From: an uncultured Pseudoflavonifractor sp.
GTDB taxonomy: Bacteria; Bacillota; Clostridia; Oscillospirales; Oscillospiraceae
Assembly: GCA_947644625.1 (NCBI GenBank)
Contig: CANRZY010000012.1
Span: 1-34,925 of the forward strand
Direction of reading: 5' to 3'
DNA length: 34,925 bases
Below, in pieces: positions 3,424 through 30,906 of the stretch (within the stretch, counting starts at the first letter, position 1; every line of letters begins with the position of its first letter). Both the position numbers and the translations under genes were made by a program. A model generated the notes under the pieces. It saw only the letters and a program-made list of their open reading frames with translations, ran no database searches and was not told where the DNA came from.

Positions 3424-4293
3424 TCAAAATTCCCCGTGGTAGCTTCCAAATCCCTCCCCCAACACCTCATGGGAGGAAGTCACGATCATAAAGGCATTGG
3501 GATCCACCTGGCGGACCGTTTCCTTGATGGCGACGATCTGCCGCTGTTTAAAGGCGCACAGGATCACCTTTTTGGGCTGCCTGGAATATCCGCCCTCCCC
3601 CTGAAGATAGGTAACGCTCCGGTCCAGTTCCTCCAGAATGACCCGGGAGATCTCCTCCGGCTTATCGGAAATGATATAGGCCACCTTGGCATTATCCATG
3701 CCGTAAAGCACCCAGTCCATCACCACGGTGGAAATGTAAAGGGCCACAATGCCATAGAGGGCGGCTCCCATATTGCGGAACACCAACGCCACCAACGCCA
3801 CCACCGTAAGATCGGCCAGCAGGAGCAGCTTTCCCATGGGAAGCCAGCTCAGCTTCAATTTCAGCAGCCGGGCCACGATCTCGGTCCCTCCGGTGGTGGC
3901 GCCCTGAAGAAAGGTGATCCCCAGTCCGACGCCCAGCACCACCCCGCCGAAGATACAGGCCAAAAGCGTATCCTCCATGGGGGAAAATTCATGCACCAGG
4001 GGAAAAAGATCGATAAACAGAGAGGAGGCCGTCATGGCAAACAGGGAACTCACCAGCATATGTCCACCCAGCAGCCTCCAGCCCAGCAGAAACAGCGGGA
4101 TATTAAACAGGATCACCACCGTTCCCACAGGAATCTTGGGAACAAAGAAATTGAGGATCTGGGCAAGGCCGGTGACCCCGCCAAAGGCGATGCCGTTGGG
4201 GACAAAAAAGGCGTCAAAGGCCAGGGCGTAAACCGCCGCGCCCACCAGGAGCATCCCGTAATTTTTCGCTAATTGGACGCCGGTACGCTTCAT
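3424..4293 (-). CDS. YitT-family membrane protein (DUF161 + DUF2179)
   Basis: This 289-aa integral membrane protein has about six hydrophobic segments in residues 1-195 and a soluble C-terminal domain (about 205-289, beginning AYIISDKPEEISRVILEEL and containing ILCAFKQRQIVAIKETVRQV). That arrangement is typical of the YitT/YpjC family. The glycine-rich signatures FVPNGIAFGGVTGLAQIL and LQGATTGGTEIVARLLKLKL match the DUF161 repeat. The function of the family is not firmly known; a transport role is assumed. The start is supported by AAAGGAGT 8 bases upstream. The gene follows the parC-like gene by only 12 bp, so the two are almost certainly co-transcribed. Confidence 0.9.
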   Translation of the reverse strand: MKRTGVQLAKNYGMLLVGAAVYALAFDAFFVPNGIAFGGVTGLAQILNFFVPKIPVGTVVILFNIPLFLLGWRLLGGHMLVSSLFAMTASSLFIDLFPLVHEFSPMEDTLLACIFGGVVLGVGLGITFLQGATTGGTEIVARLLKLKLSWLPMGKLLLLADLTVVALVALVFRNMGAALYGIVALYISTVVMDWVLYGMDNAKVAYIISDKPEEISRVILEELDRSVTYLQGEGGYSRQPKKVILCAFKQRQIVAIKETVRQVDPNAFMIVTSSHEVLGEGFGSYHGEF

Positions 4294-4305: not shown

Positions 4306-6549
4306 TTAAAAAAGGGATATTTGTTCCTCTCCCAGGTCCTCGTCCTTCAAAACGGCGCCCATAATGGGAAGGGATTTTGCCCGGTACCGGGCCAGGTTGC
4401 CAAGGGACAGTTCCTCCAAAGGACAGACCCGCTCCACCTGGCGTTTGGGCTTCAGGGTTATGACCGCCACCCCCTGGGTATTCCGGGTAGTCTTGGGGGC
4501 CAGGACGGCGGTATGAAAGACAAGGCAGCGGTTTTCCGAGGAAATGACCGCCAGCTCCCGGTCCTCCCGAAGGAGGAAGGCGGCGGCCAGGGGAGATTTG
4601 TCGGAATAGGCTCCGGTAAGCTTTTTCCTCCGAGTCTGTGTCTGGTAGGCAGACAACTCTACACGGGCCGCCTTTCCGTTTTGGAAGAAAAAGAGGAGAT
4701 TTCCGGTGTAGTCGCTGGTAATACAGGCCCAGACTACGCTTTCCCCGGCGTCCATGCCCAGCTTGGTGGGCAGATAGTCGCCCAGGACGCTGGCTTTGGC
4801 GTCGTCAAAGTCGGAAAGCCGGGTCTTGTAGCATTGCTGGCGGTCGGTAAATACCAGCAGATGATCCCGGTTATTGGCCTCCCACCGCTGGGAGGGGCCG
4901 TCCCCCTCCTTGTATTTCTGCTCGCTAGCCATCCGGAGGGACTGGGGGGTGATCTTTTTTAAGTATCCCTCTTTGGAAAGGAATACATTCACCGGGTAAT
5001 CGGGAACGGACTCCTCCGTTTCCTCCTCGGCGGCGGCCTGGTATTCGTAGACGATCTCGGTGCGGCGGGGGGAGGGATATTTTTTCATCACGTCCTGAAG
5101 CTCCCCGGCGATGATCCCCTTGACCCGCTGGGGGTGGTCCAGGATATCCTGAAGATCTTCGATCTCCTTCTCCAGCTCGGCGGTCTCAGCCACCCGCTTG
5201 AGGATATACTCCTTGTTGATGTTGCGCAGGCGGATATCCGCCACATACTCCGCCTGGACCTGATCGATGCCAAAGCCAATCATCAGGTTGGGAATGACCT
5301 CCGCGTCCAATTCCGTGTCCCGGATGATCTTGATAGCCTTGTCAATGTCCAGCAGGATCTTTTTCAGACCCTTCAACAGGTGCAGTTTATCCTTTTTCTT
5401 TTTCTGGATGAACCAGGTCCTCCGGCGGACTCCCTCGCTCCGCCAGGCTACCCATTCCTCCAATATTTCCCGCACGCCCAGTACCTTGGGCATACCGGCA
5501 ATAAGGATATTGAAATTGCAGGAAAAGGAATCCTGAAGGGGAGTGGACTTAAAGAGTCTTGCCATCAGCTTTTCCGGGTCGGTCCCCCGCTTCAGGTCGA
5601 TGGTGAGCTTCAATCCCGAAAGGTCGGTTTCGTCCCGCATGTCGGAGATCTCCTTGAGCTTCCCTGCCTTCACAAGCTCGGTGACCTTGTCCATAATGGC
5701 CTCGGCGGTGGCGGTATAGGGGATCTCATAGATCTCAATGACTCCCTCCTCCTTTACGTGCCGCCACTTGGCCCGGACCTGGAAGGAGCCCCGGCCGGTG
5801 GCGTAGATGTCCGCCATCTGCGCCCCGTCGTAAAGAAGCTGCCCTCCCGTGGGGAAGTCGGGGGCCTTCAGAATGGAGAGAAGGTCGCACTGGGGATCCT
5901 TCATGTAGGCGATGGTAGCCTCGCATACCTCCTGAAGGTTAAAGCCGCACAGGTTGGAGGCCATGCCTACGGCAATGCCCTGATTGGCGGACACCAACAC
6001 ATTGGGGAAGGTGGTGGGCAAAAGGGAGGGTTCCTGCATACTCCCATCATAATTGTCCACAAAGTCCACCGTGTCCTGGTCGATATCCCGGAAAAATTCC
6101 GTACAGATGGGGTCCAGCTTGGCCTCGGTATACCGGCTGGCCGCCCAGGCCATATCCCGGGAGTAAACCTTGCCGAAGTTACCCTTGGAGTCCACAAAGG
6201 GGTGGAGAAGAGCCCCGTAGCCACGGCTCAGCCGCACCATGGTATCATAGATGGCGGCGTCGCCGTGGGGGTTGAGACGCATGGTCTGGCCCACGATGTT
6301 GGCCGATTTGGTCCGGGCCTTGGTAAGAAGGCCCATATCGTACATGGTGTAGAGAAGCTTCCGGTGGGAGGGCTTAAAGCCGTCGATCTCCGGGATGGCC
6401 CGGGACAGGATCACGCTCATGGCGTAGGGCATGAAGTTGATCTCCAGGGTCTCGGTGATGGGCTGCTCCACCACCTCCGCCCGAAGTCCCATCACATTGG
6501 GATCGGCGGGGCGGTGCTTCTGCTCGTCAGGATTTTTCTTTTTCGCCAT
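4306..6549 (-). CDS. parC: Topoisomerase IV-like (GyrA/ParC family) subunit A
   Basis: This is the A subunit of a type IIA topoisomerase, which cuts and rejoins DNA with the B subunit encoded by the parE-like gene of the same run. The catalytic tyrosine is seen in AASRYTEAKL (Tyr140 counted from MAKKK). The winged-helix region has LNPHGDAAIYDTMVRL; the residue matching the quinolone-contact Ser83 of GyrA is Ala. A coiled-coil tower and a short C-terminal beta-pinwheel follow (EGYLKKIT, GKAARVEL). No GyrA box of the QRRGGKG type is present, favouring a decatenase-like rather than supercoiling enzyme. ATG at 6561 is in frame, but the AAAGGATGG site lies on it; ATG at 6549 (MAKKKNPDEQ) has proper spacing and is preferred. 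The product is 747 aa. Many Clostridia carry such a divergent second pair besides GyrAB. Confidence 0.9.
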   Translation of the reverse strand: MAKKKNPDEQKHRPADPNVMGLRAEVVEQPITETLEINFMPYAMSVILSRAIPEIDGFKPSHRKLLYTMYDMGLLTKARTKSANIVGQTMRLNPHGDAAIYDTMVRLSRGYGALLHPFVDSKGNFGKVYSRDMAWAASRYTEAKLDPICTEFFRDIDQDTVDFVDNYDGSMQEPSLLPTTFPNVLVSANQGIAVGMASNLCGFNLQEVCEATIAYMKDPQCDLLSILKAPDFPTGGQLLYDGAQMADIYATGRGSFQVRAKWRHVKEEGVIEIYEIPYTATAEAIMDKVTELVKAGKLKEISDMRDETDLSGLKLTIDLKRGTDPEKLMARLFKSTPLQDSFSCNFNILIAGMPKVLGVREILEEWVAWRSEGVRRRTWFIQKKKKDKLHLLKGLKKILLDIDKAIKIIRDTELDAEVIPNLMIGFGIDQVQAEYVADIRLRNINKEYILKRVAETAELEKEIEDLQDILDHPQRVKGIIAGELQDVMKKYPSPRRTEIVYEYQAAAEEETEESVPDYPVNVFLSKEGYLKKITPQSLRMASEQKYKEGDGPSQRWEANNRDHLLVFTDRQQCYKTRLSDFDDAKASVLGDYLPTKLGMDAGESVVWACITSDYTGNLLFFFQNGKAARVELSAYQTQTRRKKLTGAYSDKSPLAAAFLLREDRELAVISSENRCLVFHTAVLAPKTTRNTQGVAVITLKPKRQVERVCPLEELSLGNLARYRAKSLPIMGAVLKDEDLGEEQISLF

Positions 6550-6618
6550 CTTGGCATCCATCCTTTATCCGTTGGGTTTTATGGGGGACGGGTGGGTTCC
6601 GTCCTTACTGTAATTTTA

Positions 6619-8322
6619 TTAAGGCTTCTCCGGCAGACTGATGACGCCGATTTCAAAAAGGGAGTCGTCAAAGAGGCCACCCAGCTTTGGGTCTGCTTTC
6701 ATTTCCTGGTAAAGCTTTCCCCGTTCAGTCTGCCATATATTCTGACCTCGCACGTCGTTTCGTTCCCACCAGTTATAGTCGTCCAGATAATTTTCATAGG
6801 CCTCGTCCCAGGAGGAAAAGCTTTCGCAAAGCTTGGCGGCGGCGGGCTCCAACAGGGTCAGAGCTTCCTCGTAGCTTATGTAGCCTGCGGTATATCCCCA
6901 CTGGACCAGATTCGATATCCGAAACAGGTCCCAAGCCAAAAGTCCCCGCGCTCCCCACTTTTCATCCAAATACGCTGTGTACTCCCACATATAGGAAGGC
7001 CAGGAGTTGGACGCTTCAGAGACAGCCGTACGCTCCTCTGCTTGGAGCTTAGCGTCCTCCGCCATCTTCCGAAAGGCGGAGCCATGGTCTTCTGTAGTCA
7101 TAGACAGAAGGGTATAGATCAACGTGTCCCTGTTCGAAATATTCCAGGCGTTGCTGCCCAAGACTCTCCGGCAGGTCTCAGCCCGGCCGGCGGAGCGCTG
7201 ATAGAGCCCGAACCGGGCGGGATCTCCCCCGTTTACTTTGGTCAGCATGGCTCCCATGGAAAGGGCCCAGGCCTCCAGATTCGAGTCCTCCGCCACCGAC
7301 TTTTCTTCCTCTATGATGACCAGCTGCTTTCTTCCGTTCCATTCCACCCGCTGGCCCAAAAACTCAGCCACATACCGGGCCGGGAGCATGGTCCTGCCCT
7401 CGGTAGCATAGGGCGCCACATCCATTTCGACCTTTTCTTCATTTACGAGAGCGTCGGTAGAGTTTAAGGTCATTACCACCCTTGTACCCGCTCTTTTCAG
7501 CAGGATCTGTTGGCTCTCCGGGATCCATTCCACGTCGGCGCCCAGAGCCTCGGCCACCGCCCGTAGGGGCACCATGGTCCGCTGGTTTCTGACCTCAGGC
7601 GCCACATCCATCCGCAGTGCCTCGCCGTCCACCTCTATGGCAATGTGCCCGTCCGCCCGGCCCGCCGCGGCCATCCACTGGTACGTCCGAAGGCCCCGTT
7701 TTGCCTCCATGGTCCCGCAGTCCAGAAACTCCTCAAAAGAGGTCATATTGCAGTGCCCCATGACCGTCTCTAGCTGCTCCACAAAGTTGGGGACCCGGTC
7801 GGGAAAGCCCTGCTTGGTCCCCTGCTTTTCCGTCCTGCCGTAATACTCCATCTGGAAGGTCCACCTGGCGCTCCACAGCTCCAGCCTAGCCTTTGCCTCC
7901 TCATCCAGGGAAGCTCCCAGCTCCCGCAGGATGGAGGGGATGGCGTTTTCCACCCTCCAGAAATATTCGCCCCAGCCCTTGTTCTTGTGGTACATCAGCT
8001 CAATGAGATTCATCTCGTACGCCGCGCCGGGGTCCATGGGGGACTGATCGGCCAGGGAGTTCAGCTTCTGAAAGGCTCCCCAAAGGGGATTCTTTTCTCC
8101 CGGACGGGGGTTTCCGGCCAGCGCGTCTGCCCGAAGCTGAAGGAGGCAGTCCCAATACTCCGGCTCATAGACCCTGCTTTCTTCAAATATGACATAGTCC
8201 TTGGCCTGGATCCACTCCGGCGGCGTGGGAAGCCTGCTTTCAGCCCCCAAAGCGCCTGGAAATGCCGAAAAAGCAATGACCACAGCCAGTATCAGCCAAG
8301 CCTTTCCCTGTCTCATTTCCAT
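6619..8322 (-). CDS. Secreted stalk-domain + DUF1266 protein (paralog D)
   Basis: This is a 567-aa exported protein. A signal peptide (residues 1-27, cleavage near GALGA-ES) is followed by the motif PTPPEWIQAKDYVIF...VYEPEYW shared by its siblings, then a helical region. A 'copper amine oxidase N-terminal' stalk domain covers about 226-342 (RTMVPLRAVAEALGADVEW, then RTMLPARYVAEFLGQRVEW). A DUF1266 domain covers about 347-540 (LEAWALSMGAML; AWDLFRISNLVQWGYTAGY; SYEEAL; FSSWDEAYENYL). The stalk domain is a structural module and does not bind copper by itself. DUF1266 has no known activity. The start has GGGAGG 5 bases upstream. It is the last paralog before parC, 69 bp away, with no terminator between. 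Confidence 0.9.
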   Translation of the reverse strand: MEMRQGKAWLILAVVIAFSAFPGALGAESRLPTPPEWIQAKDYVIFEESRVYEPEYWDCLLQLRADALAGNPRPGEKNPLWGAFQKLNSLADQSPMDPGAAYEMNLIELMYHKNKGWGEYFWRVENAIPSILRELGASLDEEAKARLELWSARWTFQMEYYGRTEKQGTKQGFPDRVPNFVEQLETVMGHCNMTSFEEFLDCGTMEAKRGLRTYQWMAAAGRADGHIAIEVDGEALRMDVAPEVRNQRTMVPLRAVAEALGADVEWIPESQQILLKRAGTRVVMTLNSTDALVNEEKVEMDVAPYATEGRTMLPARYVAEFLGQRVEWNGRKQLVIIEEEKSVAEDSNLEAWALSMGAMLTKVNGGDPARFGLYQRSAGRAETCRRVLGSNAWNISNRDTLIYTLLSMTTEDHGSAFRKMAEDAKLQAEERTAVSEASNSWPSYMWEYTAYLDEKWGARGLLAWDLFRISNLVQWGYTAGYISYEEALTLLEPAAAKLCESFSSWDEAYENYLDDYNWWERNDVRGQNIWQTERGKLYQEMKADPKLGGLFDDSLFEIGVISLPEKP

Positions 8323-8360
8323 TTTTCCTCCCTTTTTGTTTCCCGGTACAGTTATATTTC

Positions 8361-10047
8361 TCAGACGACGGCTCCGGGGTCCGTCTGCTCCAGAATGCCG
8401 ATCACTCCCGTCTCAAAGAGGGAATCATCCAAAAGGGGGGCCACCCGGGGATCCTGCTTCATCTGCTCCTGATAAGATCTGCCCAGAGGCGTTTCCCAAA
8501 CGCCGCCCTCTCCCGGTTCCGTCCAAGTCCGCCAGTGGTAGCCGTCCAGGTAGTTTTCATAGGCTTCGTCCCAGGAGGAGAACTGGGTGCTGAGAATGGC
8601 GGCGGCGGGCTCCAGCAGGGCCAGAGATTCCCGGTAGGTAAGATAGCCCGCGGTATACCCCCATTGGACCAGGTTGGACATCCGAAACAGGTCCAGGGCC
8701 CAGATTCCCTTGTCCCCCCACTTTTGGGCCAGCTCCTTGGTATAGGCAAGACGCCAGCCCTCATCTCCCGCGGCGGTCACCGCCGCTTCAAACTCCTCCT
8801 CGCTGAGACGGAGGGCCAGCACCGCTGCCCAACGGTAGTCGCTGTCGCTACCGTCCAGGGTCAGTTCCGCCACCACCGCCATCAATTCCTCCCGGTTGGT
8901 GACTCCCCAGTACCGCTCCAGCTTCTGCCGGGTGTACTCAGCCACCGTTTGATGGATGGGATAGGGCTCCCCCAGCTCCTTCAGCTCACTGAGGCTCGCC
9001 ACCGTAAGACCGGTCCTGCTGTAGCCGCCGTAAAGGGAGGCGTCCCCATGGTAGGCCAGCACCATCATGGCGCCCATGGGAAGGGCCCAGGCCTCCAGAT
9101 TGGACCGGCCCATCACCGATTTGTCCTCCGTGATCTCCACCCGCCGTTCCTCCCCGTTCCAGGCCACCTTCTGTCCAAAAAATTCAGCCACATAGCGGGC
9201 CGGGATCAGAGTCCGGCCGTCGGAGGCATAGGGGGCCACGTCCATCTCTACGGTTTCTCCGTCCAGGGTAGCGGTGGCGCTGCCCAGCGTCATGGTCACA
9301 ATGGAGCCCGCCCGTGTCAGGGTGACCTGCCCCGCGCTTTGATCCCAGCTTACGTCAGCCCCCAGGGCCTCCGCCACCGCCCGTAGGGGTACCATGGTCC
9401 GCCCGTCCCGGACTTCGGGGGGGCACGCTCATCCCCAAAGAACTTCCGTCGATATAGACGTAGATCTTCTCCATATATGCTTTTACGTCCCGCTCCAGAT
9501 ATGTTCTTCTCCGGGGGGAGACCCGGTCCATGAAGGGTCCGCTGAAAAAGTCCTCCAGGGTTTTTCCCGTTTCCTTCAGCAGCGTTCCCAAAAGTTGGTC
9601 CATAGGCATGGAGTCGTCCTCCTCCAGCACACAGGCCTGAAGCTCCAGAAAGCGCAGGGCGTAGTAGTTTTCTCCCTTTTCCTCCTCCAGCTCCTCCCGG
9701 GCCGTCCGAAATGCCTGATAGGCGTTGCTGTAATTGGAAAGGGATGTGCTGTTGGCGGCAAATTGCAGCCGGATAAGCCCCAGCTCATAGCAGGTCCCAG
9801 CGGAGCCGATGGGGTTTCCCCGCTGCTGATAGGGATAGGGGTCCCCTGCCCGGGCGCTTTCCCGTAGGGCCAGGATCTGGGCCCAGTTTTCCGGCTCATA
9901 GACCTCATCGCCGGGAAAAATGAGATAGTCCTCCGCCCGGATCCATTCCGGGGCCACAGGCTCCATCGGTTCCTCAGCCTCCGCCGCCCCCACACAGGGC
10001 AGGGTCAGCGCCAGAGCCAAAAAAAGGGCCGTCCATCTCTTCTTCAC
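8361..10047 (-). pseudogene. Stalk-domain + DUF1266 paralog C, split by a +1 frameshift in a C7 tract
   Basis: Two overlapping frames together make one sibling of the family. The N-terminal part (GTG start at 10047, signal peptide, VAPEWIRAEDYLIF...VYEPENW motif) reads to GMSVPP and then goes out of frame. The rest (VRDGRTMVPLRAVAEALGADVSW onward, stalk repeats, then DUF1266 with WALDLFRMSNLVQWGYTAGY) continues one base on. The junction is a run of seven C on the coding strand (9417-9423); six would restore a 561-aa protein, the length of the siblings. The break may be a real mutation, reversible slippage, or a homopolymer sequencing error. The GTG start overlaps the stop of paralog B by 4 bp (GTGA), with AGGAGG inside B, so translation is coupled. 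Confidence 0.85.
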
Positions 10048-11777
10048 GCCGACTCCTCCTGTCCGTTCAGGCCGATCACTCCGGTCTCAAAAAGGGTGTT
10101 GTCCAGCACCGCCGCCCAGGCGGGGGTGCTTTTCAGCCGCAAATAATAAAAGCCCCGGGGCAGCTTGGCAAGCTGGGCGTCGGTCCCTCCCTCCCAGCCG
10201 GGAACGGTCCAGCCGCTCTGCTGCTGGAGAAGGGCCTGCCCCTGCAAATAGGAAGCCACATCGATCCTGGCCCACCAGGCATAGCCCTCCAGGTAATTTT
10301 CATAGAACTCCTCCCAGGAGGAAAAGGTGGCAAAGGCCAGCTCCGCTGCGGGACGCACCTGCTCAAGGGCCTCCTCATAGGTCAGGTAGCCCGCCATATA
10401 GCCCCACTGGACCAGATTGGACATACGGGAGAGGTCCCAGGCCAGGATCCCCTTGTCCCCCCACTTTTCCACGAGATATTTGGTGTAGGGCCACATATAC
10501 CGGTCCGTCTGGCCGGAAACGGACATCAACGCGCCCATGTCCTCCTCGCTAAGGCTTTGGGCGATGGCCGCAGCCTCCTGAAAGCTGTCGTTATGGCCGT
10601 GGTGGGTCATGCGTCCGATAAGCTCTATCAATCCCTCCCGGTCTTGGATCCCCCAGGCGGAGGATAAATTTTTCCGGAAGCTCTCTCGTGCCGCGACGGT
10701 GCGGGGCGTCTGCCCGAAGCGGGTGGGATCCTGCTCATCCAGAGAGCCTCGAATGGCTCCCATGGCAATAGCCCAGGCCTCCAAGTTGGAGCCCTCCGCC
10801 ACAGATCGGTCTTCCAGAATATCAGCCCGGTGGGTGTTTCCGTCCCAGGTCACCCTCTGTCCAAAAAACTCGGCGGCATACCGGGCGGGGATCAGAGTTC
10901 TACCCTCGGTGGCATACGGGGCTACATCCATTTCCACCGCCTGTCCATCCACCTGGGCGGCAGTGCTATCCAAAGTCATGGTCACTGTAGAGCCTGCCCT
11001 GGTCAGGGTGATCCGGCCCGTCTCCTGCTCCCAGCCTACGTCGGCCCCCAGAGCCTCCGCCACCGCCCGTATGGGTACCATGGTCCGCCCGTCCCGGACA
11101 TCAGGGGGTACGTCCATTTCCAGAGGTTGAGCGTCCAGATAAAGATCCACCCGGTTTGCCCAGCGTTCCTCCTCCTGGGCATGGGCCAGCCAAAAGGCGT
11201 CCTTTTCCTCCTGAGAAAAGACGACGCAGTCCAGCAGCTTTTCGTAGGAAAAACGGGGATCATCCAAAAGAGGGGCTACGCTTTCATAAAATTCCTCTCC
11301 CACGCCGTAATAATGAAGTATGCTCCTGGCATTCCAAAGCAAAACGGGATAGCGCTGCTCAGGGGTAAGGCTGTCCCGGATATTGTCAATATGATACATC
11401 AGGGTGGTCCAGTTGGGGGCCCTTTCCCCATCCTTCAGCCGGTAAAGCCGAAGCTCGATAAGGGCCAGCTCAAACAGGGCTCCTGCGTCCGGGTGCTTTC
11501 GGTCGGTAGCAAGCTTATAGAGCCGGTTATGTCCGGCGTCCAGCTCCTTGGGAATAGCCGCCACATGGATCTCTCCCCAACTCACCTCCCGCCGGAGGCC
11601 CTGGATGGTCTCCCAGTTATCCGGCTCATAGGCGTCTGAATCCTCAAAAACAGCATATTCTTCCGCCGGAACCCAGTCGGGAGGTGTGGGGTGGGCCCTC
11701 TCCAAGGCCAGAGTGGCGGGAAAAAGAGAAAATGCCAATGTCACAGTCAAAAGCAAGGTCACGCATTTCTTTTTCAT
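10044..11777 (-). CDS. Secreted stalk-domain + DUF1266 protein (paralog B)
   Basis: This 577-aa exported protein has the same plan as its neighbours. It has a signal peptide (about residues 1-24, LFPATLA-LE), the N-terminal motif PTPPDWVPAEEYAVF...AYEPDNW, and a helical segment. The stalk domain follows (RTMVPIRAVAEALGADVGW; EGRTLIPARYAAEFFGQRVTW), then DUF1266 (NLEAWAIAMGAIRG; LAWDLSRMSNLVQWGYMAGY; FSSWEEFYENYLEGYAWW). The C-terminal tail is longer than in the others. The GGGAAAAGGA site lies just ahead of ATG 11777. A 77-bp gap separates it from the stalk-only gene upstream. It is coupled to paralog C downstream by a 4-bp overlap. Function is unknown; extracellular or cell-wall location is inferred from the signal peptide. 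Confidence 0.9.
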   Translation of the reverse strand: MKKKCVTLLLTVTLAFSLFPATLALERAHPTPPDWVPAEEYAVFEDSDAYEPDNWETIQGLRREVSWGEIHVAAIPKELDAGHNRLYKLATDRKHPDAGALFELALIELRLYRLKDGERAPNWTTLMYHIDNIRDSLTPEQRYPVLLWNARSILHYYGVGEEFYESVAPLLDDPRFSYEKLLDCVVFSQEEKDAFWLAHAQEEERWANRVDLYLDAQPLEMDVPPDVRDGRTMVPIRAVAEALGADVGWEQETGRITLTRAGSTVTMTLDSTAAQVDGQAVEMDVAPYATEGRTLIPARYAAEFFGQRVTWDGNTHRADILEDRSVAEGSNLEAWAIAMGAIRGSLDEQDPTRFGQTPRTVAARESFRKNLSSAWGIQDREGLIELIGRMTHHGHNDSFQEAAAIAQSLSEEDMGALMSVSGQTDRYMWPYTKYLVEKWGDKGILAWDLSRMSNLVQWGYMAGYLTYEEALEQVRPAAELAFATFSSWEEFYENYLEGYAWWARIDVASYLQGQALLQQQSGWTVPGWEGGTDAQLAKLPRGFYYLRLKSTPAWAAVLDNTLFETGVIGLNGQEESA

Positions 11778-11854
11778 TCCTTTTCCCTCCTGCTCTTTTC
11801 ATTTGCTCTCCTTATTCGCCGGGTATTATCTGCCTTTTATATCACAAGTAGGAA

Positions 11855-13123
11855 TCATTTTGACTTTAGGGCGGCAGTGGAAAAGTCCGACTTCCACTCC
11901 ACCTCGCACCCAAGAGCCTCCCCCAGGGCCCGGAGGGGAAGATAGGTGATCCCATTTTCGGCAAAGGGGGCGGCGTCCAGGACCCCGCCGCTGTATTCCA
12001 GGCTTCCCAAGGTAAAGGAGACCGTCCGGTCCCCGTTGGAGCAGACCACCTGGCTTGTCTCCGGCTTCCACTCCACCGTCAGGCCCAGAGCCTCTGCCAC
12101 CGCCCGAAGGGGGACCAAAATACGGTCATTTTCCACCTTGGGGCAGGGGGTCATATTTTCCAGGTTGGGATAACGGTAAAACCGGATGGGCGACCCATCC
12201 ACCGTTACACAGTAGTCTCCGGCAAAGCCGGCGCTTTTTTCCACCCACTGGGTAAACATTTCCTTCTTGAAGGTCTCCTCATCCCAGCCCATGCTTTCCC
12301 GGTGTACCTCCGGGGGCCAGTAGTCCCCCCAGCTGCCTGTTCTATACCAGCTTTCAGCATCAAAGGCGGCGTACTCCTCGGGCCAGCGGGCAAGGTAGCT
12401 TTCCTTCCGTTGGGCCTCCTCCATAGACAGGACGGCGTAATACATATATCCGGCGTATTTTGACTCCTTCCACTCCTCCTCGTTTTGAAAGGAAAAGCGG
12501 GACATTTCATCTTCCTTTTTTGCGGGGTCCACTCCCTCGTTGGGGTCAAACTCCTCCCAACTGCCGGGATACTCCGCCCGATATTTCAGAGACGCGTCGT
12601 GATCCTGGGCCACCCGCTGCCGTTTTTCAATATAACCGGCGGCGATATCCTGCCGGACCGCCTCCACGTCTCCCTTCAGGGCTCCTCCGTACTGCTGGGC
12701 CCGCTCCTCCAGGGTGGCGCAGCCACACTCCTTCACAGTCTTCGCGATGGCCCCATCCAGCTCCCCCGGGTATTCCGCTTCATAGCACTGGGTGACATAG
12801 GCGTTATAGTTCCGCTGTGCCTTATCGTTTATGCTGTCGCACCAACAGCGGTAGCGGAATTCGGCTTCGCCAAAGCCGTTGCTGGACATAAAATCCTCTT
12901 TGTTCGTCGATCTGCCATAACGAAGGTCAAAATAGCCGTCGGCGTCAAAGGAAGCCAGCTCCTCGGGATGCTGCGCGATATACTCAGAAATGAACCGGTC
13001 CACATAGGACCCTGAATAGGTGCGCCAGCCCTGATCCTCCAAGGTGACAGTCTCTATGGCACCGGCGGGGAGGGCCGGCAGGAGGGTCAGGACGATCAGC
13101 AGGGAAAAGATCCTCTTCTTCAT
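11855..13123 (-). CDS. Secreted stalk-domain protein without DUF1266
   Basis: This 422-aa protein has a signal peptide (MKKRIFSLLIVLTLLPALPA, cleavage near AGA-IE). Its unusual N-terminal region (about 25-310) is rich in Glu, Tyr and Trp, with repeated 'YPGELDGA / YPGSWEEFDP / WPEEYAAFDAESW' phrases that suggest degenerate internal repeats. I do not recognise that region. A C-terminal stalk (Cu_amine_oxidN-type) domain covers about 315-420 (RILVPLRAVAEALGLTVEWK; ITYLPLRALGEALGCEVEWK). It lacks the DUF1266 domain and the P-x-W-x-x-A-x-x-Y-x-x-F motif of its neighbours. It starts only 6 bp after paralog A ends, so the two are co-transcribed. It may share an extracellular partner or location with the DUF1266 paralogs, but that is inference. 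Confidence 0.85.
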   Translation of the reverse strand: MKKRIFSLLIVLTLLPALPAGAIETVTLEDQGWRTYSGSYVDRFISEYIAQHPEELASFDADGYFDLRYGRSTNKEDFMSSNGFGEAEFRYRCWCDSINDKAQRNYNAYVTQCYEAEYPGELDGAIAKTVKECGCATLEERAQQYGGALKGDVEAVRQDIAAGYIEKRQRVAQDHDASLKYRAEYPGSWEEFDPNEGVDPAKKEDEMSRFSFQNEEEWKESKYAGYMYYAVLSMEEAQRKESYLARWPEEYAAFDAESWYRTGSWGDYWPPEVHRESMGWDEETFKKEMFTQWVEKSAGFAGDYCVTVDGSPIRFYRYPNLENMTPCPKVENDRILVPLRAVAEALGLTVEWKPETSQVVCSNGDRTVSFTLGSLEYSGGVLDAAPFAENGITYLPLRALGEALGCEVEWKSDFSTAALKSK

Positions 13124-13129
13124 TTCAAA

Positions 13130-14815
13130 TCAGTCCTTTTCCGCTTTTAACAGTTCATCATGGAACAACGTCCGGGTATCGGGACTGTTTTTTAGGTATT
13201 GATACGCCATACCCAGGTCGGTGTCCCACACCGTCTTGTCCCCCAGGTCCTCCCGGAGGCACCAGTAGTACCCGTCCAGGAAGTTTTCGTAGACCTCATC
13301 CCAGCTCTCAAATTTCTTTTCCAACTCCTGTACGGCGGGATCCAGAAGCTCCAAAGCCTCACCATAGGTCACATAGCCCGCGGTGTAGCCCCATTCCACA
13401 AGGGCGGCGCAGCGGCACAGGTCCCAGGCCCGGATCCCCCTGGACGTCCACTTATCCCACAGGGCCTTGGTCCGGGGCCACATATATTGGTCTACCTCGC
13501 TGAGGCTTTTGGTCCGGCGGTCGATCTCCCGGATGGAGAGATACCGGACCTCTTTGGCGGCGTCCCGAAAATCCTTGTCGTGACCCAGCTCCAAAATGCC
13601 GTTTACCGTTGCCAGCAGCGTTTCCCGGCTGTCCACGTCCCAGTTTTTCTCCAGATTCTCCCGGCAAACAGCCCAGGGGAACACCGTTTGGTTTTCAGGG
13701 ATCCCGTCCTCACCGGGAACGGTCTGTGTATAAGGGGTGCGGCTGGAAAAGCCGAACCGGGTGGGGTCCCCCTCCCGCAAGAAGCCCAGCAGAGCCCCCA
13801 TAGGAAGGATCCGCTCCTCCAATTCAGCGCTCTTCCGGTCGGTTTTATCCTCTGTGATCTCGACCCGGTTTTCTTCCCCGTTCCAGATCACCTTCTGGCC
13901 GAAAAATTCCGAAACATAGCGGACCGGCACATAGGTGCGGTTTCCGTCGGCGTAGGGAGCTGCGTCCATCTCCGTTTTCTCCCCGTTCACCATGGCGGCA
14001 GTTTTCCCAAGGGTCATGGAGACAGTGCTTCCCGCCCGGCTCAGGATAACGCGGCCGTTTTTTTCCTCCCATTCCACATGGGCCCCCAGGGCCTCGGCAA
14101 TGAAACGGATGGGGACCATCACCCGCTGCCCGACCACCTGGGGAGCGGTATCCATACGAAGATCCTCCCCGTCCAGACAGACAAAGATCCGGTTTTTCTC
14201 CCGGTCATAGCTGCCCTGATACGCTTCCACCGCCTGAGCGACGATGGCTCGGTCAGCCTGATCTACCCGGTCCATGTAGGGGGCGTCAAAAAAATCCTCC
14301 AGGGTCATATCCAGGGCGTCCAGGGCGGGGACCAGGCTGCGGCCCCAGTCCCCTACATAACCCACATGATAGATCAAAAACGCCCGGTATTTTTCCACAC
14401 TCAGCCGGTAATAGATCTCGTCCCGGCCCCGGTTTTGGTCATACCAGCCGCTTTCTGCGGCGGCAAAGGCCCTGCCCGCCGCAAGAAAGGCCCCTCCCGC
14501 CTCAAAGGCATCGTCCCCATAGTTTTCCGCGCACCGCAGGCGGATGAGGGCGGTCTCATAGCATTCTCCCACCGAACCCTGGGCCCAGTCCCGGCCCTCG
14601 TAGGGGAGAAGAGCCCCCTGCTCCGCCGCCTGCCGCTCCTCCAGCACCTGCGCCCAGCGCTCCTCTTTATATACGGGATCGTTGGGGAAGGTAAGGTAGC
14701 GTTCCGACGCCACCCACGCCGGAGCCGTTCCCTCCGCCGCCCTGGCCCCCGGGGCAAGGGGAAGAAGCAGGGTCAGGGCCAAAGTAAAAGCCAGAAGCCG
14801 TTTGATCCGGTTCAT
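13130..14815 (-). CDS. Secreted stalk-domain + DUF1266 protein (paralog A)
   Basis: This 561-aa exported protein has a signal peptide (residues 1-27, ending PGARA-AE), then TAPAWVASERYLTFPNDPVYKEERW, the family's N-terminal motif. A helical region is followed by the stalk domain (QRVMVPIRFIAEALGAHVEW; NRTYVPVRYVSEFFGQKVIW) and DUF1266 (ELEERILPMGALLGF; RAWDLCRCAALVEWGYTAGY; FESWDEVYENFLDGYYW). ATG 14815 (MNRIKRLLAF) is chosen because GGGAGG lies 9 bases upstream; a longer frame to 14875 would put 20 polar residues before the signal peptide and run into parE. It is the first paralog after the parE-like gene (56 bp gap). It is the most divergent of the four, with changed residues in the R-x-x-N-L-V-Q-W core. 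Confidence 0.9.
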   Translation of the reverse strand: MNRIKRLLAFTLALTLLLPLAPGARAAEGTAPAWVASERYLTFPNDPVYKEERWAQVLEERQAAEQGALLPYEGRDWAQGSVGECYETALIRLRCAENYGDDAFEAGGAFLAAGRAFAAAESGWYDQNRGRDEIYYRLSVEKYRAFLIYHVGYVGDWGRSLVPALDALDMTLEDFFDAPYMDRVDQADRAIVAQAVEAYQGSYDREKNRIFVCLDGEDLRMDTAPQVVGQRVMVPIRFIAEALGAHVEWEEKNGRVILSRAGSTVSMTLGKTAAMVNGEKTEMDAAPYADGNRTYVPVRYVSEFFGQKVIWNGEENRVEITEDKTDRKSAELEERILPMGALLGFLREGDPTRFGFSSRTPYTQTVPGEDGIPENQTVFPWAVCRENLEKNWDVDSRETLLATVNGILELGHDKDFRDAAKEVRYLSIREIDRRTKSLSEVDQYMWPRTKALWDKWTSRGIRAWDLCRCAALVEWGYTAGYVTYGEALELLDPAVQELEKKFESWDEVYENFLDGYYWCLREDLGDKTVWDTDLGMAYQYLKNSPDTRTLFHDELLKAEKD

Positions 14816-14871
14816 ATAACAATACCTCCCTTGCAGCGGCGGTTTGAATGGGCATATAAAGCGCAGCCGGG

Positions 14872-16860
14872 TCACGAAATATCCGCCAGCTCCAAAAATT
14901 CGTGGCCGTGCTCGGCGATGTGGTCCTTCCGGCCCTGAAGGTTGTCCCCCAGCAGCAGGTCAAACATCCGGGAGGTTTCCTCGGCGTCCTGGGGCATGAC
15001 CTTGATAAGCCGCCTGGTCTCCGGGTTCATGGTGGTGAGCCACATCATCTCCGGCTCGTTTTCGCCCAGACCCTTGGAGCGCTGAATGGTGATCTTTTTC
15101 CCCTCGCCGATCTCCTTGACGATGTCGTCCTTTTCCTTGTTGGAGTATGCGAACCAGGTTTTTTCTTTGTAGTTGATCTCATAGAGGGGAGATTCCGCAA
15201 TATACACATACCCCCGCTTGATAAGGGTGGGGGTAAGCCGCCAGAGCATGGTCAGGATCAGGGTGCGGATCTGGTAGCCGTCCACATCGGCGTCGGTGCA
15301 AATGACGATCTTGTTCCAGCGAAGGTTCATCAGATCAAAGGCCGCCAGATCCTTGGCCTTCTTGTCGTTTACCTCCACCCCGCAGCCCAGCACCTTCATC
15401 AGGTCCGTGATGATCTCGCTTTTAAAGATCCGGGCGTAGTCTGCCTTCAGACAGTTCAGGATCTTGCCCCGGACGGGCATGATCCCCTGGAACTCCGCGT
15501 CCCGGCTCAGCTTCACGCTTCCCAGAGCGGAATCGCCCTCCACGATATAAAGCTCCCGCCGCTCCGGGTCCCGTGTCCGGCAGTCCACAAACTTCTGGAC
15601 CCGGTTGGCAAGGTCCATGGTGCCGGTAAGCTTTTTCTTGATGTTGAGCCGGGCCTTCTCGGCCGACTCCCGGCTTCTCTTGTTGATGAGCACCTGCTCG
15701 CCGATCTTCTGGGCGTCGAAGGGGTTCTCGATAAAGTAGACCTCCATCTGGGCCTTCAAAAACTCCGTCATGGCGTCCTGGACAAATTTGTTGCTGATGG
15801 CCTTTTTGGTCTGATTTTCGTAGGAGGTCTGGGTGGAAAAGTTGTTGGAGACCAGTACCAGGCAGTCCTCCACATCGTTCCAGGTGACCTTGCTTTCGTT
15901 CTTCTGATACTTCCCCTGCCGCTTCAGATAGCCGTCGATGGCGGACACCAGCGCTGAGCGGGTAGCCTTGTCCGGGCTTCCGCCGTGCTCCAGCCAGGAG
16001 GAATTGTGGTAGTGCTCAATGATCTGGAGCGTATTGGAAAAGCACAGGGAAACGCTGAGCTTTACCTTATATTCCGGCTTGTCCTCCCGGTCCCGGCCCT
16101 TCCGTTCGGTTTGCCAGAAAACAGGAGCGGTGAGGGACTTTTCTCCGGAAAGCTCCTTCACATAGTCCTGGATCCCGTTTTCGTACAGGAAATCGGTGGT
16201 CTCAAATCTTCCGGGGGTGGTTTCATTCTTAAAGCGGAAGGTGACTCCCGCGTTGACCACTGCCTGCCGCTTCATCACGTCGGTATAGTACTCCGCCGGG
16301 ATATGGATGTCGGTGAAAACCTCCAGGTCGGGCTTCCAGCGGATGGTGGTCCCTGTCTTCTTTCCCTGGTCGGTGTCCTCCTCGTGGAGTCCGCCAATGT
16401 TTTCCCCTTTTTCAAAGTGAAGGGTGTACTTTTTCCCGTCCCGGCGGACGGTCACATCCATATACTCGCTGGCATACTGGGTGGCGCAGGAGCCCAGGCC
16501 GTTAAGACCCAGGGAATATTCATAGTTATCGTCCCCGCCGCCGTATTTGCCTCCGGCGTAAAGTTCGCAGAACACCAGCTCCCAGTTATACTTCTCCTCC
16601 TTCTCGTTCCAGGCCACCGGGCAGCCCCGGCCCTGGTCGATGACCTCGATGGACTGGTCCAGAAACCGGGTCACGGTAATGAGGCTGCCGTGGCCCTCCT
16701 TGGCCTCGTCGATGGCGTTGGACAGGATCTCAAAGACGGCGTGCTCGCAACCGTCCAGTCCATCGGAGCCAAAAATGACTCCGGGCCGTTTCCGTACCCG
16801 GTCGGCCCCCTTCAGGGAGGAGATGGAAGAGTTGTCGTATTGCTGCTTTGTGCTTGCCAT
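14872..16860 (-). CDS. parE: Topoisomerase IV-like (GyrB/ParE family) ATPase subunit B
   Basis: This 662-aa B subunit supplies ATP hydrolysis and the TOPRIM domain to the heterotetramer formed with the parC-like product. The GHKL ATPase part has [11 protein letters not shown] (Glu44, Asn48), IEVIDQGRG (Asp75) and GLNGLGSC in place of the common GLHGVGAS. The TOPRIM part has EGDSA (441-445), MPVRGKILN (461-469) and TDADVDG (522-528), so all metal-binding acids are present. The sequence is clearly divergent from housekeeping GyrB. ATG 16860 ([10 protein letters not shown]) has GAGGGAAA upstream; a longer frame to 16911 covers the promoter and is rejected. It heads the long minus-strand run with its own promoter. 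Its usual partner gene parC lies 8.3 kb downstream rather than next to it. Confidence 0.92.
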
Positions 16861-16926
16861 TTGCTTTCCCTCACAGTACAAATCATGGTAAGCCCTTATA
16901 AAAAGGCGCATATCAAATCAATATAT

Positions 16927-16956
16927 AGTATATCACAAAGGGGCAAGTTCCCACAA
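16927..16956 (-). promoter_or_regulatory. Candidate extended -10 promoter for the parE-to-lipoprotein run
   Basis: On the minus strand TGATATACT (16935-16927) is an extended -10 box. TTGTGG (16956-16951) is a weak -35 at 18 bp. It lies about 70 bp before the parE start, in the divergent spacer shared with the S-layer gene. No other clear promoter was noticed in the gaps between the following genes. Confidence 0.55.
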
Positions 16957-17064: not shown

Positions 17065-18984
17065 ATGAAACGAAAGCTGTCCCTTTTCCTGGCTGGGGCC
17101 ATGGCGATCTCCCTTCTGCACGGCGTCAGCCTGCCCGCGGCGGCGGAGTCACCCATTCAACTGGGCGACTATGTGACCATGGGTACATACAACGGAACCC
17201 CCATTCAGTGGCGGTGCGTCTCCTTTGAAAAAATCGTGGGGACCGATGAAAACGGGAATCCTATCATGGACTCCACCGATACCGTGACCGAACCCACCGC
17301 CGGATACCTTCCTCTCATGCTGTCCGACACCTATGTGTGTGAAAAGGAATTTGACGTTTCCGGTCAGAATACCGACCACTCCCATGGCCGGGGCTATAAC
17401 AGGACCTCACATCCCAGCGTCAACGAGGGCGGTTCCAATTACTGGGGAGACAGCACTCTGCGCTGCTGGCTCAATTCCGCGGAGGAGACGGTGACCTACA
17501 CCTGCGGGAACCCTCCCTCCTCCAGAGCCCTCTATCAATACGGCAGAGAGCCGGGGTTTTTGACCAACTTTACCGCTGACGAGCTGGCAAAGATCCGGAG
17601 CGTCACCCAAAAGACCATTTTGGCAAAGTGCGATTATGACGTTTTGAGCGCCCAAAGCGGCGTTAAAACAGGTGGTTCGGCGGCGCTGACGGTCCACGCA
17701 AGCTCAGCAGACTTGGTCTCCGGTCTGGCCGTTTCAAAAGCAGTAGAGGGCTACGCCGACGCCTACTATGAGTACGTTACCGACACCTTGTTTCTTTTGG
17801 ACATCCAGCAGATCAAAAATGTAAGCGAGAACAGCGGCGTCCTGGGAAATTACTATTATATCCCATATACCTCCTCCGATTATAAAACCGGATACCTAAA
17901 TCTGATTCGTACCGCTGCCGGTACAGAGTATTTTGCCACCGCTGTAATGTCCGTTGACCCAGGCAATGGCAAGATCTATTGTGCCCACGCTTCCTATGTA
18001 AATCGATTGGTACGCCCCGCCTTTTATCTGAACCAGATAACGGAGGCCGACCCGGAGCCGACGCCTACCCCAACGCCGACGCCTACCCCGGAGCCTACGC
18101 CCACACCGGAGCCGACGCCTACACCAACGCCGACGCCTACCCCGGAGCCGATGCCTACCCCGGAGCCGATGCCTACCCCGACGCCCACGCCCACGCCGGA
18201 GACTACGCCTACCCCGACGCCCACACCCACACCGACGCCTACGCCCACGCCGGACCGGAGCGATGATGACGATGACGACGGCGATTACTACCGTCCCCCC
18301 ATCAAAAACCCGTTTAAGCCGTCAAATACGCCCAAGCCTACAGAGACCCCCAAGCCTACAGAAACTCCGGCCCCTAAACTGGAACCGTCCCCGGAGCCGG
18401 TTCCCGCGGCCGCTCCCCCGGTAAGCGTGGAGCAGTTTTCCGACGTTTCGGAGGACGCATGGTATTATGAACCTGTGAGCTATGTGCTGGAAAACTCCCT
18501 TATGGTGGGTATGACCGACACGGAATTTGCACCTGAGGCAGATATCACACGTGCCATGTTTGTGACTGTGCTCTACCGGATGGCGGGAGAGCCCGATCTG
18601 TCTCAAGAAAATCTCGGCTACCCCTTTCAGGATGTGGAGGGGGACAGCTGGTATGCCAACGCGGTATATTGGGCTAAGCTTAACGGCATTGTGGAGGGCT
18701 ATTCCCTGGAGGAATTCGCTCCCCATGAAGGGATCACCCGGGAGCAAATGGCGGTCATGGTATACCGGTATGGGAAAATGAAACAATATGGTAGGGAAGT
18801 CGGCGCCGATCTAAGCTATACCGATGCCTCCGGCATCTCCGACTATGCCAGGGAGGCGGTGAGCTGGAACGCGGCCAACGATCTCATGCGGGGCCACGAG
18901 GACAACGCCTTTGATCCGTCGGCTAATACGACCCGGGCCCAGGCCGCCACCATCTTTGAAAAGCTCCATCAAAATTGCAAATAG
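17065..18984 (+). CDS. S-layer-type surface protein: DUF6273-like head, Pro-Thr linker, three SLH domains
   Basis: This 639-aa exported protein starts at ATG 17065, just after AAGGAGGACCCTGCA. A signal peptide (1-27, LPAAA-ES) leads into a head domain (about 30-320) with [20 protein letters not shown] and [13 protein letters not shown]. These resemble the DUF6273 module seen in many clostridial surface proteins. A low-complexity Pro-Thr/Glu linker (about 331-396) and an acidic [11 protein letters not shown] patch span the wall. Three SLH repeats (about 455-639: [60 protein letters not shown]) should bind secondary cell-wall polymer. It is transcribed away from parE. The aminopeptidase gene follows after 27 bp, possibly in the same transcript. 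The head's function is unknown. Confidence 0.88.
18055..18252 (+). repeat. Short tandem repeat coding for the Pro-Thr-Glu linker
   Basis: Reiterated 6-bp units (ACGCCT, ACCCCG, ACGCCC, GAGCCG) encode TPTP, TPEP and MPTP runs inside the S-layer-type gene. A second, smaller direct repeat follows (CCCAAGCCTACAGA, from about 18329). Such units allow length variation by slippage without breaking the frame. Confidence 0.85.
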
Positions 18985-28365: not shown

Positions 28366-29186
28366 TCTTTGGCACACAGCCGGTTGATATGGATCATCAG
28401 ATAAAGCTGCTCCTCGGTGGAGCACTGAATGGAAAGCATCTTTTCCAACCGCTTCTGGACGGCGGTCATGGTCTCGTAGATGTCCGGGTAGTCCGCCTTG
28501 ATGTGTTCGTAGAGATCGTCCTCCCCATCCCCGGTGTAGAGGGCTCCTTCTCCCGCCCGCTTGGTAAAATACCTTAGGTGCATGGAAAAGCGGTAGCAGT
28601 CGTAGGAGCTTCGGTTGATCTTCAGCCCCTGCCGCTCCTCCACGATCTGCAATACTTGCTCCAGCAGGGTCTCAAACTCAGTGGTGGCGGTCTCGGCGGT
28701 ATATTGCTGGTAGTTGTTGATGAAGTGGAGGGCGATGCCGGTGGCCTCCTCCTTGGGAAGATAGACCTTCAGCTCCTCCTTCAGCCGCCGGAGGGCGTAA
28801 GAGCCGATCTGAAACTCGGTCTCATAGAGGTTTTCGATCTCATAGGCAAAGGGCATTTTGACCTGAATATTTTCCCTCTGCCGCTCAATGGCAAACTGGA
28901 TGTGGTCGGTGAGGGAGAAGGCAAAGTTGCTGGGGATGGACTTGCCTGAGATCCGCTGGGCGTAGCGGATCACCTCTTGGGAGATCCGAAATACCCGGTC
29001 GTCCATCTCGGCGATCATGCTCACCAGCTGGGGGTCCACATGATAGTAGGTGGCGTCCAGCTTTTCCAGATCCACCTCACAGGGAAACTGACCGAAGCCA
29101 ATGCCCCGGCCATAGGCGATCATCTCCGCGCCGTTGCTGTCCAGACACAGGGCGAAATTGTTGTTGATCTTTTTGATGGCCTGCAA
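28347..29186 (-). CDS. licT: LicT/BglG-family transcriptional antiterminator
   Basis: This 279-aa RNA-binding regulator has an N-terminal co-antiterminator domain (1-57: IKKINNNFALCLD...GRGIGF) and two PRD domains. The four phosphorylatable histidines are in place: His95 (TDHIQ), His154 (ALHFIN), His203 (MHLRYF) and His266 (MIHINRL). PTS phosphorylation of these switches RAT binding on or off. No ATG exists at the proper place. The frame opens upstream with TTG codons; TTG 29186 (then QAIKKINNN) is preferred because GAGAGGGG and GTGAGGA lie just before it and it gives the family N-terminus. TTG 29210 would lie in the terminator T-tract. It heads the operon and should autoregulate through RAT site 1. 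Confidence 0.93.
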   Translation of the reverse strand: MQAIKKINNNFALCLDSNGAEMIAYGRGIGFGQFPCEVDLEKLDATYYHVDPQLVSMIAEMDDRVFRISQEVIRYAQRISGKSIPSNFAFSLTDHIQFAIERQRENIQVKMPFAYEIENLYETEFQIGSYALRRLKEELKVYLPKEEATGIALHFINNYQQYTAETATTEFETLLEQVLQIVEERQGLKINRSSYDCYRFSMHLRYFTKRAGEGALYTGDGEDDLYEHIKADYPDIYETMTAVQKRLEKMLSIQCSTEEQLYLMIHINRLCAKEDCHRS

Positions 29187-29208
29187 ATCCTCACCCCTCT
29201 CTGTGTAC

Positions 29209-29267
29209 AAAAAAACCTCAAGGGCACACCAAGCCGCAACAAAACGGTAAGGTAATGCCTCCTGAGG
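29209..29267 (-). terminator. Conditional terminator in the licT leader
   Basis: Minus-strand arms CCTCAGGAGGCA (29267-29256) and TGCCCTTGAGG (29226-29216) pair with one bulged A and one G-U, followed by seven T. The 5' arm lies inside RAT site 1, so LicT binding prevents its formation. Confidence 0.85.
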
Positions 29268-29281
29268 GGGAGTGACAGTCC
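29251..29281 (-). promoter_or_regulatory. RAT antiterminator site 1 in the licT leader
   Basis: This 31-nt minus-strand site begins GGACTGTCACTC and ends GGAGGCATTACC, a good match to the LicT/BglG RAT consensus. It shares its opening ten bases (GGACTGTCAC) with site 2. It overlaps the leader terminator. Confidence 0.85.
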
Positions 29282-29297
29282 TTATTTCTACGGTGAA

Positions 29298-29326
29298 ATT
29301 ATATCACCCGGGAAATTCCCTGTCCA
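29298..29326 (-). promoter_or_regulatory. Promoter of the licT operon
   Basis: TGGACA (29326-29321), a 17-bp spacer and TATAAT (29303-29298) on the minus strand, with a TG extension of the -10 box. Transcription should start about 10 bp before RAT site 1. No cre box was confidently found. Confidence 0.8.
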
Positions 29327-29476
29327 TTGTGATATTTTTCAATCTTTTCCCTGACTTTTTGTGCAAGTTGCCCCGAAAATGGAAAGTGGACAGGCTGTTA
29401 AGAAGAAAAAGGCGGAATCTTATTTCCTCTAAAGTACAGTAAGGTGGAGGCAGCGAGTTCTGTTGTGCCTATAAAA

Positions 29477-29507
29477 AAAGCAGTACCCTATTTCAGGTAC
29501 TGCTTTT
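29477..29507. terminator. Stand-alone bidirectional hairpin terminator
   Basis: AGCAGTACC/GGTACTGCT stem with loop CTATTTCA, flanked by A7 on the left and T4 on the right. No intact gene ends here. It may belong to a lost gene or to the broken EFR1 gene further right. Confidence 0.7.
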
Positions 29508-29761
29508 CTGGAGCGGGCAACGTCGTCGGCACAAGCTCCATATCCCTCGCTTCGGCCCCAAGGGCCAAAGCTCGCTCATTTCGCTGTGCCTCCTCTCCCC
29601 ACAAAATTTGAGGGACAATTTTGTAGGGTCCCCCCTCTCGCTCCCTCTGATTGAAAATCCTTTTTACCTTTCGTGTTGATAAACGCCTACCCGGAAAAAT
29701 TTTCGTCAGAATGCTGAAATGGGCAGTTATCTTCTATGGACAACTGCCTATAAATCAACAT
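29508..29761. other. Gene-free spacer with nested hairpins
   Basis: No coding frame is supported here. GGCACA (29528-29533) pairs with TGTGCC (29585-29590) around an inner GGCCC/GGGCC hairpin (29554-29566). ACAAAATT (29601-29608) pairs with AATTTTGT (29617-29624). The pattern resembles a dispersed intergenic palindrome or a small structured RNA; neither can be named. It lies just left of the broken ferredoxin gene, near the mobile-element boundary. The stretch 29327-29476 to its left shows nothing recognisable. Confidence 0.4.
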
Positions 29762-30127
29762 TTATAAGTATCTACTCACATCATTTTGTTCAATGACCTT
29801 TTTCCCTAGCAGTGTGATTACCTGCTCCGGACATTTGCTAATACAGCGATAACACATTGTACATTTATCACTTGAAACAGCAATTCCATTTTTCACTGTA
29901 ATGTTACCCATAGGACATAACCTTTCACACAAACCACAACCAATACATTTTGAATGATTGATTTTTAATCTATCCGTATATTTTTGAGTCTTCCCCCAAA
30001 AGTACAGTCTTTGCCCAAACAGTCCCGCCAAATGACATACGGCTCCTAATCCCTCTTGCGGTGGTTTTCCATTCTTTATATTGTCCACGCATTTACATAT
30101 TTTTTCCGTTGTTTTTACTACAATTCT
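29762..30127 (-). pseudogene. EFR1-family ferredoxin, 3' fragment (N-terminal flavodoxin part missing)
   Basis: The reading frame keeps the C-terminal half of an EFR1-type protein: EGLGAVCHLAGLFGQRLYFW, then two [4Fe-4S] motifs CIGCGLCERLCP and CTMCYRCISKCP. Full-length family members are about 260 aa and start with a flavodoxin-like domain; here only about 120 codons remain. Upstream of GTG 30088 the frame still reads plausible family sequence (VVKTTEKICKCVDNIKNG) to about 30124. It then hits TAA at 30130-30128, where the sequence changes to the hairpin-rich segment. I infer that an insertion cut the gene here and that the lost 5' part may lie beyond the right edge. GC content is lower than the genes to the left. 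A short stand-alone ferredoxin translated from GTG 30088 cannot be ruled out. Confidence 0.75.
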
Positions 30128-30870: not shown

Positions 30871-30876
30871 AAATGG

Positions 30877-30906
30877 TTGACAAGTCTATCGGATGTGTGT
30901 TATACT
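30877..30906 (+). promoter_or_regulatory. Promoter of the Mef-like efflux unit
   Basis: Consensus TTGACA (30877-30882), 18-bp spacer, TATACT (30901-30906). It lies about 275 bp before the efflux gene, leaving a long attenuator leader. Confidence 0.85.

Follow-up and report, generated by a model that had tools for sequence, protein, structure and literature searches.

The window analysed here, a stretch of 34,925 nucleotides from an uncultured Pseudoflavonifractor sp. of the family Oscillospiraceae (GenBank assembly GCA_947644625.1, contig CANRZY010000012.1), is the whole of contig C12 of a 1.9-Mb genome in 135 contigs that is 89% complete. Its minus strand carries, in order, a parE-like gene for a type IIA topoisomerase subunit, genes A, B, C, D, and E, a parC-like gene, a gene for a YitT-type membrane protein, and a gene for a protein with a sub-threshold transglutaminase match. 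The parE stop and the parC start lie 8.31 kb apart, with five co-directional signal-peptide genes between them. Four of these (A, C, D, and E) are paralogs encoding stalk and DUF1266 domains, and the fifth (B) encodes a stalk only. The split of the topoisomerase pair by an exported array, put forward in a preliminary description of this DNA made from the sequence alone, is real, and the coordinates and gap sizes given there are correct. The features are as follows.

16927..16956, minus strand: predicted sigma-A-like promoter before parE, read by eye (TTGTGG, 18 nt, TATACT; TG one base ahead of TATACT)
14872..16860, minus strand: parE-like type IIA topoisomerase subunit B, ATG at 16860 (PF00204, PF00986, PF01751, and PF02518 over cut-off)
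13130..14815, minus strand: gene A, exported helical, stalk, and DUF1266 protein, 561 aa (PF07833 2.5e-35, PF06889 2.6e-25)
11855..13123, minus strand: gene B, exported protein with an X-like helical part and a C-terminal stalk, 422 aa (PF07833 3.1e-23)
10044..11777, minus strand: gene C, exported stalk and DUF1266 protein, 577 aa (PF07833 1e-33, PF06889 3.4e-28)
9355..10047, minus strand: gene D, first open reading frame (ORF), signal peptide and helical part (ORF comparison with the ortholog in genome G001)
8361..9395, minus strand: gene D, second ORF, stalk and DUF1266 (PF07833 5.4e-30, PF06889 7.3e-18)
6619..8322, minus strand: gene E, exported stalk and DUF1266 protein, 567 aa (PF07833 1.9e-35, PF06889 3.9e-20)
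4306..6561, minus strand: parC-like type IIA topoisomerase subunit A (PF00521 8.9e-128)
3424..4293, minus strand: YitT/DUF2179 membrane protein (PF02588, PF10035)

Successive gaps from parE through A, B, C, D, and E to parC are 56, 6, 77, -4, 38, and 57 bp, the first becoming -4 bp should gene A begin at the GTG (14875) given by the ORF finder rather than at the ATG (14815) taken here. The parC start is the ATG at 6561 or, matching the genus by comparison, 6549, and the YitT-type gene follows parC after 12 bp, a position it also holds in many relatives. A signal-peptide-like segment, called with an in-house heuristic rather than SignalP, opens A, B, C, the first ORF of D, and E. Window parE has 93–94% identity in the three nearest genus members. 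Both topoisomerase-like proteins carry type IIA subunit domains over the Pfam cut-offs (gyrase B, Toprim, GyrB C-terminal, and ATPase in the parE-like protein), and neither reaches an NCBIfam equivalog cut-off, with scores of 405 of 900 for parE_Gpos, 502 of 882 for gyrB, 416 of 813 for parC_Gpos, and 530 of 877 for gyrA. A separate GyrB-like gene lies in the same genome at G000:C25, and ParE and ParC serve here as labels, given by Pfam, for the genome's second type IIA pair.

Genes A, C, D, and E share a common plan of signal peptide, helical part, stalk (PF07833), and DUF1266 (PF06889). Against a PF07833 cut-off of 24.2 bits, the stalks of A, B, C, the second ORF of D, and E score 121, 82, 116, 104, and 122 bits, and against a PF06889 cut-off of 27 bits, A, C, the second ORF of D, and E score 90.0, 99.4, 65.8, and 73.2 bits; the Pfam search gave no PF06889 match in B. 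In the AlphaFold2 model of A, which has a predicted local distance difference test (pLDDT) score of 88, the stalk is predicted to adopt the fold of E. coli amine oxidase domain 1. Proteins with a signal peptide, a helical domain, an amine-oxidase-type stalk, and a DUF1266 helical domain are referred to as family Y, and family X is an exported family of about 700–800 aa without a Pfam name. The helical part of B is related to X (3.8e-32 against the X profile, 99.9% probability by hhalign), making B a short relative of X, and the window carries B where 12 genus genomes carry X.

Gene D consists of two overlapping ORFs (10047–8361), with the frame lost at a run of seven C (9417–9423, minus strand); no other C or G run of this length occurs within 4306–16911. 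The G001 ortholog is a single open frame of 561 aa with 71% identity to the second ORF of D, and the break is either a real mutation or an assembly error. The five exported proteins, four of them paralogs, of the preliminary description are borne out by their signal peptides and domains, save that D is frame-broken, leaving four intact proteins and one broken. A Y gene of genome G010 (L041, 6283–7868) is also in two pieces, with ORFs of 161 and 354 aa, so the window is not the only place where the array is broken.

parE and parC were searched in 60 genomes, with the genus represented by 16. Both genes lie on one contig in 11 of the 16, with match ends 1,453–9,568 bp apart in all 11. For the control pair gyrB–gyrA, which could be measured in 14 genus genomes, the match ends are 29–113 bp apart in 13 and 1,284 bp apart in one. 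The gene-order comparison therefore shows a split that is not limited to this assembly (1.45–9.6 kb in each of the 11 measurable genus genomes). Eighty named loci were chosen solely by parE similarity; five are genus members that also bear G handles, and 73 hold both genes. Of the 69 named loci outside the genus that hold both genes, 24 have a gap of no more than 60 bp, 8 of 61–300 bp, 13 of 301–1000 bp, and 24 of over 1000 bp, so that the earlier premise that subunit genes are normally adjacent applies only loosely to this family. The parE–parC interval is often opened in Oscillospiraceae, and always in the genus where visible.

That two exported families characterise this interval in several genera is new. 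X was searched independently of DUF1266 in 400 family genomes, with X-like genes at E<=1e-20 found in 30 and their context read for all 30. The best X match lies between parE and parC in 27 of these, spanning 11 genera (the 27 include B of the window, and seven are profile rows). In G353, X lies directly before parC without parE, and in G114 and G285, of the same genus as G353, it lies elsewhere. The first search scored two candidates per genome; a rerun of 21 non-genus genomes with all candidates scored yielded a sole extra copy (G324:C1:365670-366587, 83 bits), ~109 kb from the parE locus of G324. Distant X members match chiefly in one block of the C-terminal half. DUF1266 is present in 42 of the same 400 genomes, and the DUF1266-bearing genes split by score against a Y profile built from A, C, E, and the L100 protein, reaching at least 340 bits or at most 187 bits. 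Outside the genus, high-scoring Y genes lie between parE and parC in all six genomes that carry them, from four genera (G241, G111, and G320 of one genus; G411, which is L100; G249; and G107), with those of G320 and G107 being without most of the N-terminal helical part. Both orders occur, with parE-X-Y-parC in G241 and parE-Y-X-parC in G111 and G320. At the order level, X matched in 9 of 394 genomes: five from Oscillospiraceae that are included in the counts above, and four from a single other family. The latter (G472, G619, G644, and G709; L249-L252) have no parE or parC within about 9 kb of their X relatives, which argues that the link belongs to Oscillospiraceae; the distribution would fit a single capture followed by losses.

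X occurs in 12 of the 16 genus genomes, as a single copy at the parE–parC locus in each, alongside zero to four Y-type genes; with all candidates scored, no X match was found in G006, G009, and G013, the locus being incomplete in the latter two. The genus intervals are enriched in exported proteins (24 of 29 ORFs, against 14 of 55 in the flanks). An X, Y, or stalk-type protein lies in the interval of the five genus members among the named loci and of 9 of the 72 scanned non-genus named loci (three more were unscannable). The G006 interval holds a Gfo/Idh oxidoreductase instead, that of G002 adds an S-layer-homology (SLH) protein, and that of G007 adds an HNH protein, with the intervals of other genera containing X, Y, other stalk proteins, and a peptidase, and those of some relatives, by eye, serine-dehydratase pairs and transposase-like genes. 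By eye, serine-dehydratase-like genes recur in the intervals of L048, L062, L065, L086, L087, L096, L097, and L112. In the interval stalk proteins of L111, L115, L120, and L133, a short stretch gives a weak Pfam OAD_beta match below threshold; this stretch lies close to the N-terminus in L111 and L120 and at the C-terminus in L115 and L133. An IGGADGPT-like motif is visible in it by eye and may be a signal for sorting or processing instead of part of a decarboxylase.

The copies in the window are old. G001 carries counterparts of A, C, and D in the same order, with identities of 64–82% (64–66% for A and 82% for C), compared with 36–47% among the window paralogs, and E is nearest to a G015 gene at 59%. 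In the Y tree, A, C, and D pair with the G001 genes and E with the G015 gene, placing the copies before these species. The tree separates the interval proteins from those of G112 and G261 (100/100), with two long-branched proteins from other sites (G115 and G352) falling within the interval group, so strict monophyly is unsupported. Ratios of nonsynonymous to synonymous substitution (dN/dS) against G001 are 0.27 for A, 0.14 for C, and about 0.25 for both parts of D, with 0.35 for A against G008, 0.46 for X between G001 and G008, and 0.06 and 0.09 for parE and parC against G001, values that are rough at a dS of 0.55–1.1. A, C, and D look like fast-changing working proteins under purifying selection. 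The G001 counterpart of A (L035, 6667–8844) has an extra piece near its N-terminus that matches the X profile, a sign that domains have been shuffled among neighbouring genes of the interval. Within one Y subclade, G004 of the genus groups with G249, which belongs to another genus (support 96/96, and 100/97 for the full tree), and keeping the three genus members of this subclade together is rejected by the approximately unbiased (AU) test (p 0.003), whereas the ParC tree joins the genus with modest support (82/98). Either exchange between genera or hidden paralogy would produce this conflict.

All 60 called interval ORFs of at least 100 aa lie on the parE strand (29 in the genus, 31 in unselected relatives), compared with 41 of 55 flank ORFs in the genus and 380 of 604 in the unselected relatives. 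The consensus scan places no minus-strand terminator-like site in the gaps from parE to parC, all such sites lying inside coding sequence, and in the 10 genus genomes that were compared, inspection by eye shows a promoter-like stretch ahead of parE. The scan does not list the window's parE promoter site, whose first hexamer is weak; it gives 11 promoter-like sites for the region, where 4.8 would be expected, and one of them, inside C (10171–10143), may be an internal promoter of the array. A GATAAT-like AT-rich stretch is seen by eye before parC in several genus members. The co-directional genes, tight gaps, and gaps free of terminators reported in the preliminary description are confirmed by the ORFs and the scan, and its suggestion of a single transcript gains support from the strand counts and the stretch before parE, with reading of parE to parC as one transcript being the simplest interpretation of these sequence signs. 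On the plus strand, a divergent gene at ~17066–18984 encodes an SLH protein (SLH, DUF6273) with a Thr-Pro-rich stretch seen by eye; it shares the parE upstream region, so surface-protein genes flank the parE promoter region on both sides.

We consider it probable that the parE–parC interval has long served as a passenger site within a topoisomerase operon, occupied by exported envelope proteins that are read from the parE promoter. A single promoter before parE would read parE together with the passengers and parC, and probably the YitT gene as well, and in part of Oscillospiraceae the passengers would be envelope proteins of families X and Y, secreted, located at the cell wall, and possibly dimeric by analogy with other stalk-domain proteins. 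The array would have grown by old duplications, with its content then altered by losses and domain shuffling, and probably by transfer between genera through recombination in the conserved flanks. Such placement would give the passengers steady, operon-linked expression, for which action on DNA is not required. Several points weigh against this reading. Unrelated passengers (oxidoreductase, SLH, HNH, peptidase, transposase-like, and serine-dehydratase-like) occupy many intervals, and only the 9 of 72 non-genus loci noted above hold an X, Y, or stalk-type protein. The unselected non-genus intervals show no significant enrichment in exported proteins, with 12 of 31 ORFs against 143 of 604 in the flanks (Fisher p 0.08, the strand and export p values being only a guide as the loci are related and the ORF caller is strict). 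All X profile rows came from the parE–parC interval, so distant X genes elsewhere may be under-detected, and X and Y may keep their near-constant place simply by inheritance of a single insertion, without selection. Both scans, for promoters and for terminators, work by consensus matching, and, for transfer, the AU test group was picked after seeing the tree, the ParC branch of the genus stands at 82/98, and hidden paralogy is an alternative.

Some of these points lend themselves to neutral parking, in which the site tolerates insertions, the passengers carry their own signals and draw no benefit from the operon, and the shared place reflects one old insertion and many losses. The occurrence of X in just 30 of 400 family genomes, the unrelated genes at the same site, the location of all four other-family X relatives elsewhere, and the promoter-like signs before parC and inside C are consistent with it, but the uniform strand of the called interval ORFs, the tight gaps, the terminator-free gaps of the window, and purifying selection on A, C, and D are not, and we hold it to be rather unlikely. 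Functional coupling, in which production of the exported proteins would be tied to that of the topoisomerase because envelope growth or division has to follow chromosome decatenation or supercoiling, with operon regulation as the purpose, draws on the presence of X and Y at the site in 11 genera with few copies elsewhere, and on Streptococcus pneumoniae, for which PMC5534458 describes a promoter shared by parE and parC and a fall of both on DNA relaxation; passengers would inherit such control. The absence of an X match in 370 of 400 family genomes, passengers that lack any such logic, the unlinked other-family X relatives, and a Pfam search that found no domain pointing to DNA or division work in A–E make this improbable. 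We regard as equally improbable the related proposal that a surface-protein module is kept in the operon since its dose must follow chromosome state, with operon control coupling topology to display, and the link between envelope state and chromosome segregation raised in the preliminary description is a bare possibility. Recent tandem duplication inside this genome's operon would account for four paralogs side by side with identical domain order. It is, however, contradicted by the Y tree and by paralogs that are less alike within the genome than A, C, and D are to their G001 counterparts in the same order, and the local growth by duplication proposed earlier is very hard to maintain.

The old passenger site that we favour resembles the chromosomal hotspots between core genes without mobile elements described by Oliveira et al. 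2017 (PMC5635113), in that variable genes turn over between two conserved genes, with gene content differing between the same conserved flanks. It departs from those hotspots in lying inside a two-subunit operon, in its co-directional called insertions, and in the recurrence of two families across genera. As with the PF07833 surface proteins of Firmicutes (PMC4137172, PMC10432803), the proteins are predicted to be exported and carry a PF07833 stalk, but here the partner is DUF1266 or an X-type helical part rather than a wall hydrolase or superoxide dismutase. The DUF1266 proteins of the control genomes E. coli and C. glutamicum likewise exceed the PF06889 cut-off, whereas those here are exported and stalk-fused; most other DUF1266 proteins of the family have shorter open frames and low Y-profile scores. 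An ordinary parE–parC operon also has both subunits on one strand, with a YitT-type gene after parC in many relatives, but here 8.3 kb of exported-protein genes separates the subunits. Two unstudied exported families can be found by one address, the parE–parC gap, in at least 11 gut Oscillospiraceae genera. The naturally occurring operons, which contain X, Y, both, or neither, offer a way to learn whether foreign surface genes are tolerated or exploited by a topoisomerase operon, and whether passenger expression follows supercoiling.

Elsewhere in the window, positions 29001–34000 have a GC content of 44–52%, compared with 53–62% in the rest of the contig, and carry genes for a major facilitator superfamily (MFS) transporter and a helix-turn-helix (HTH) protein; this segment is perhaps acquired DNA.

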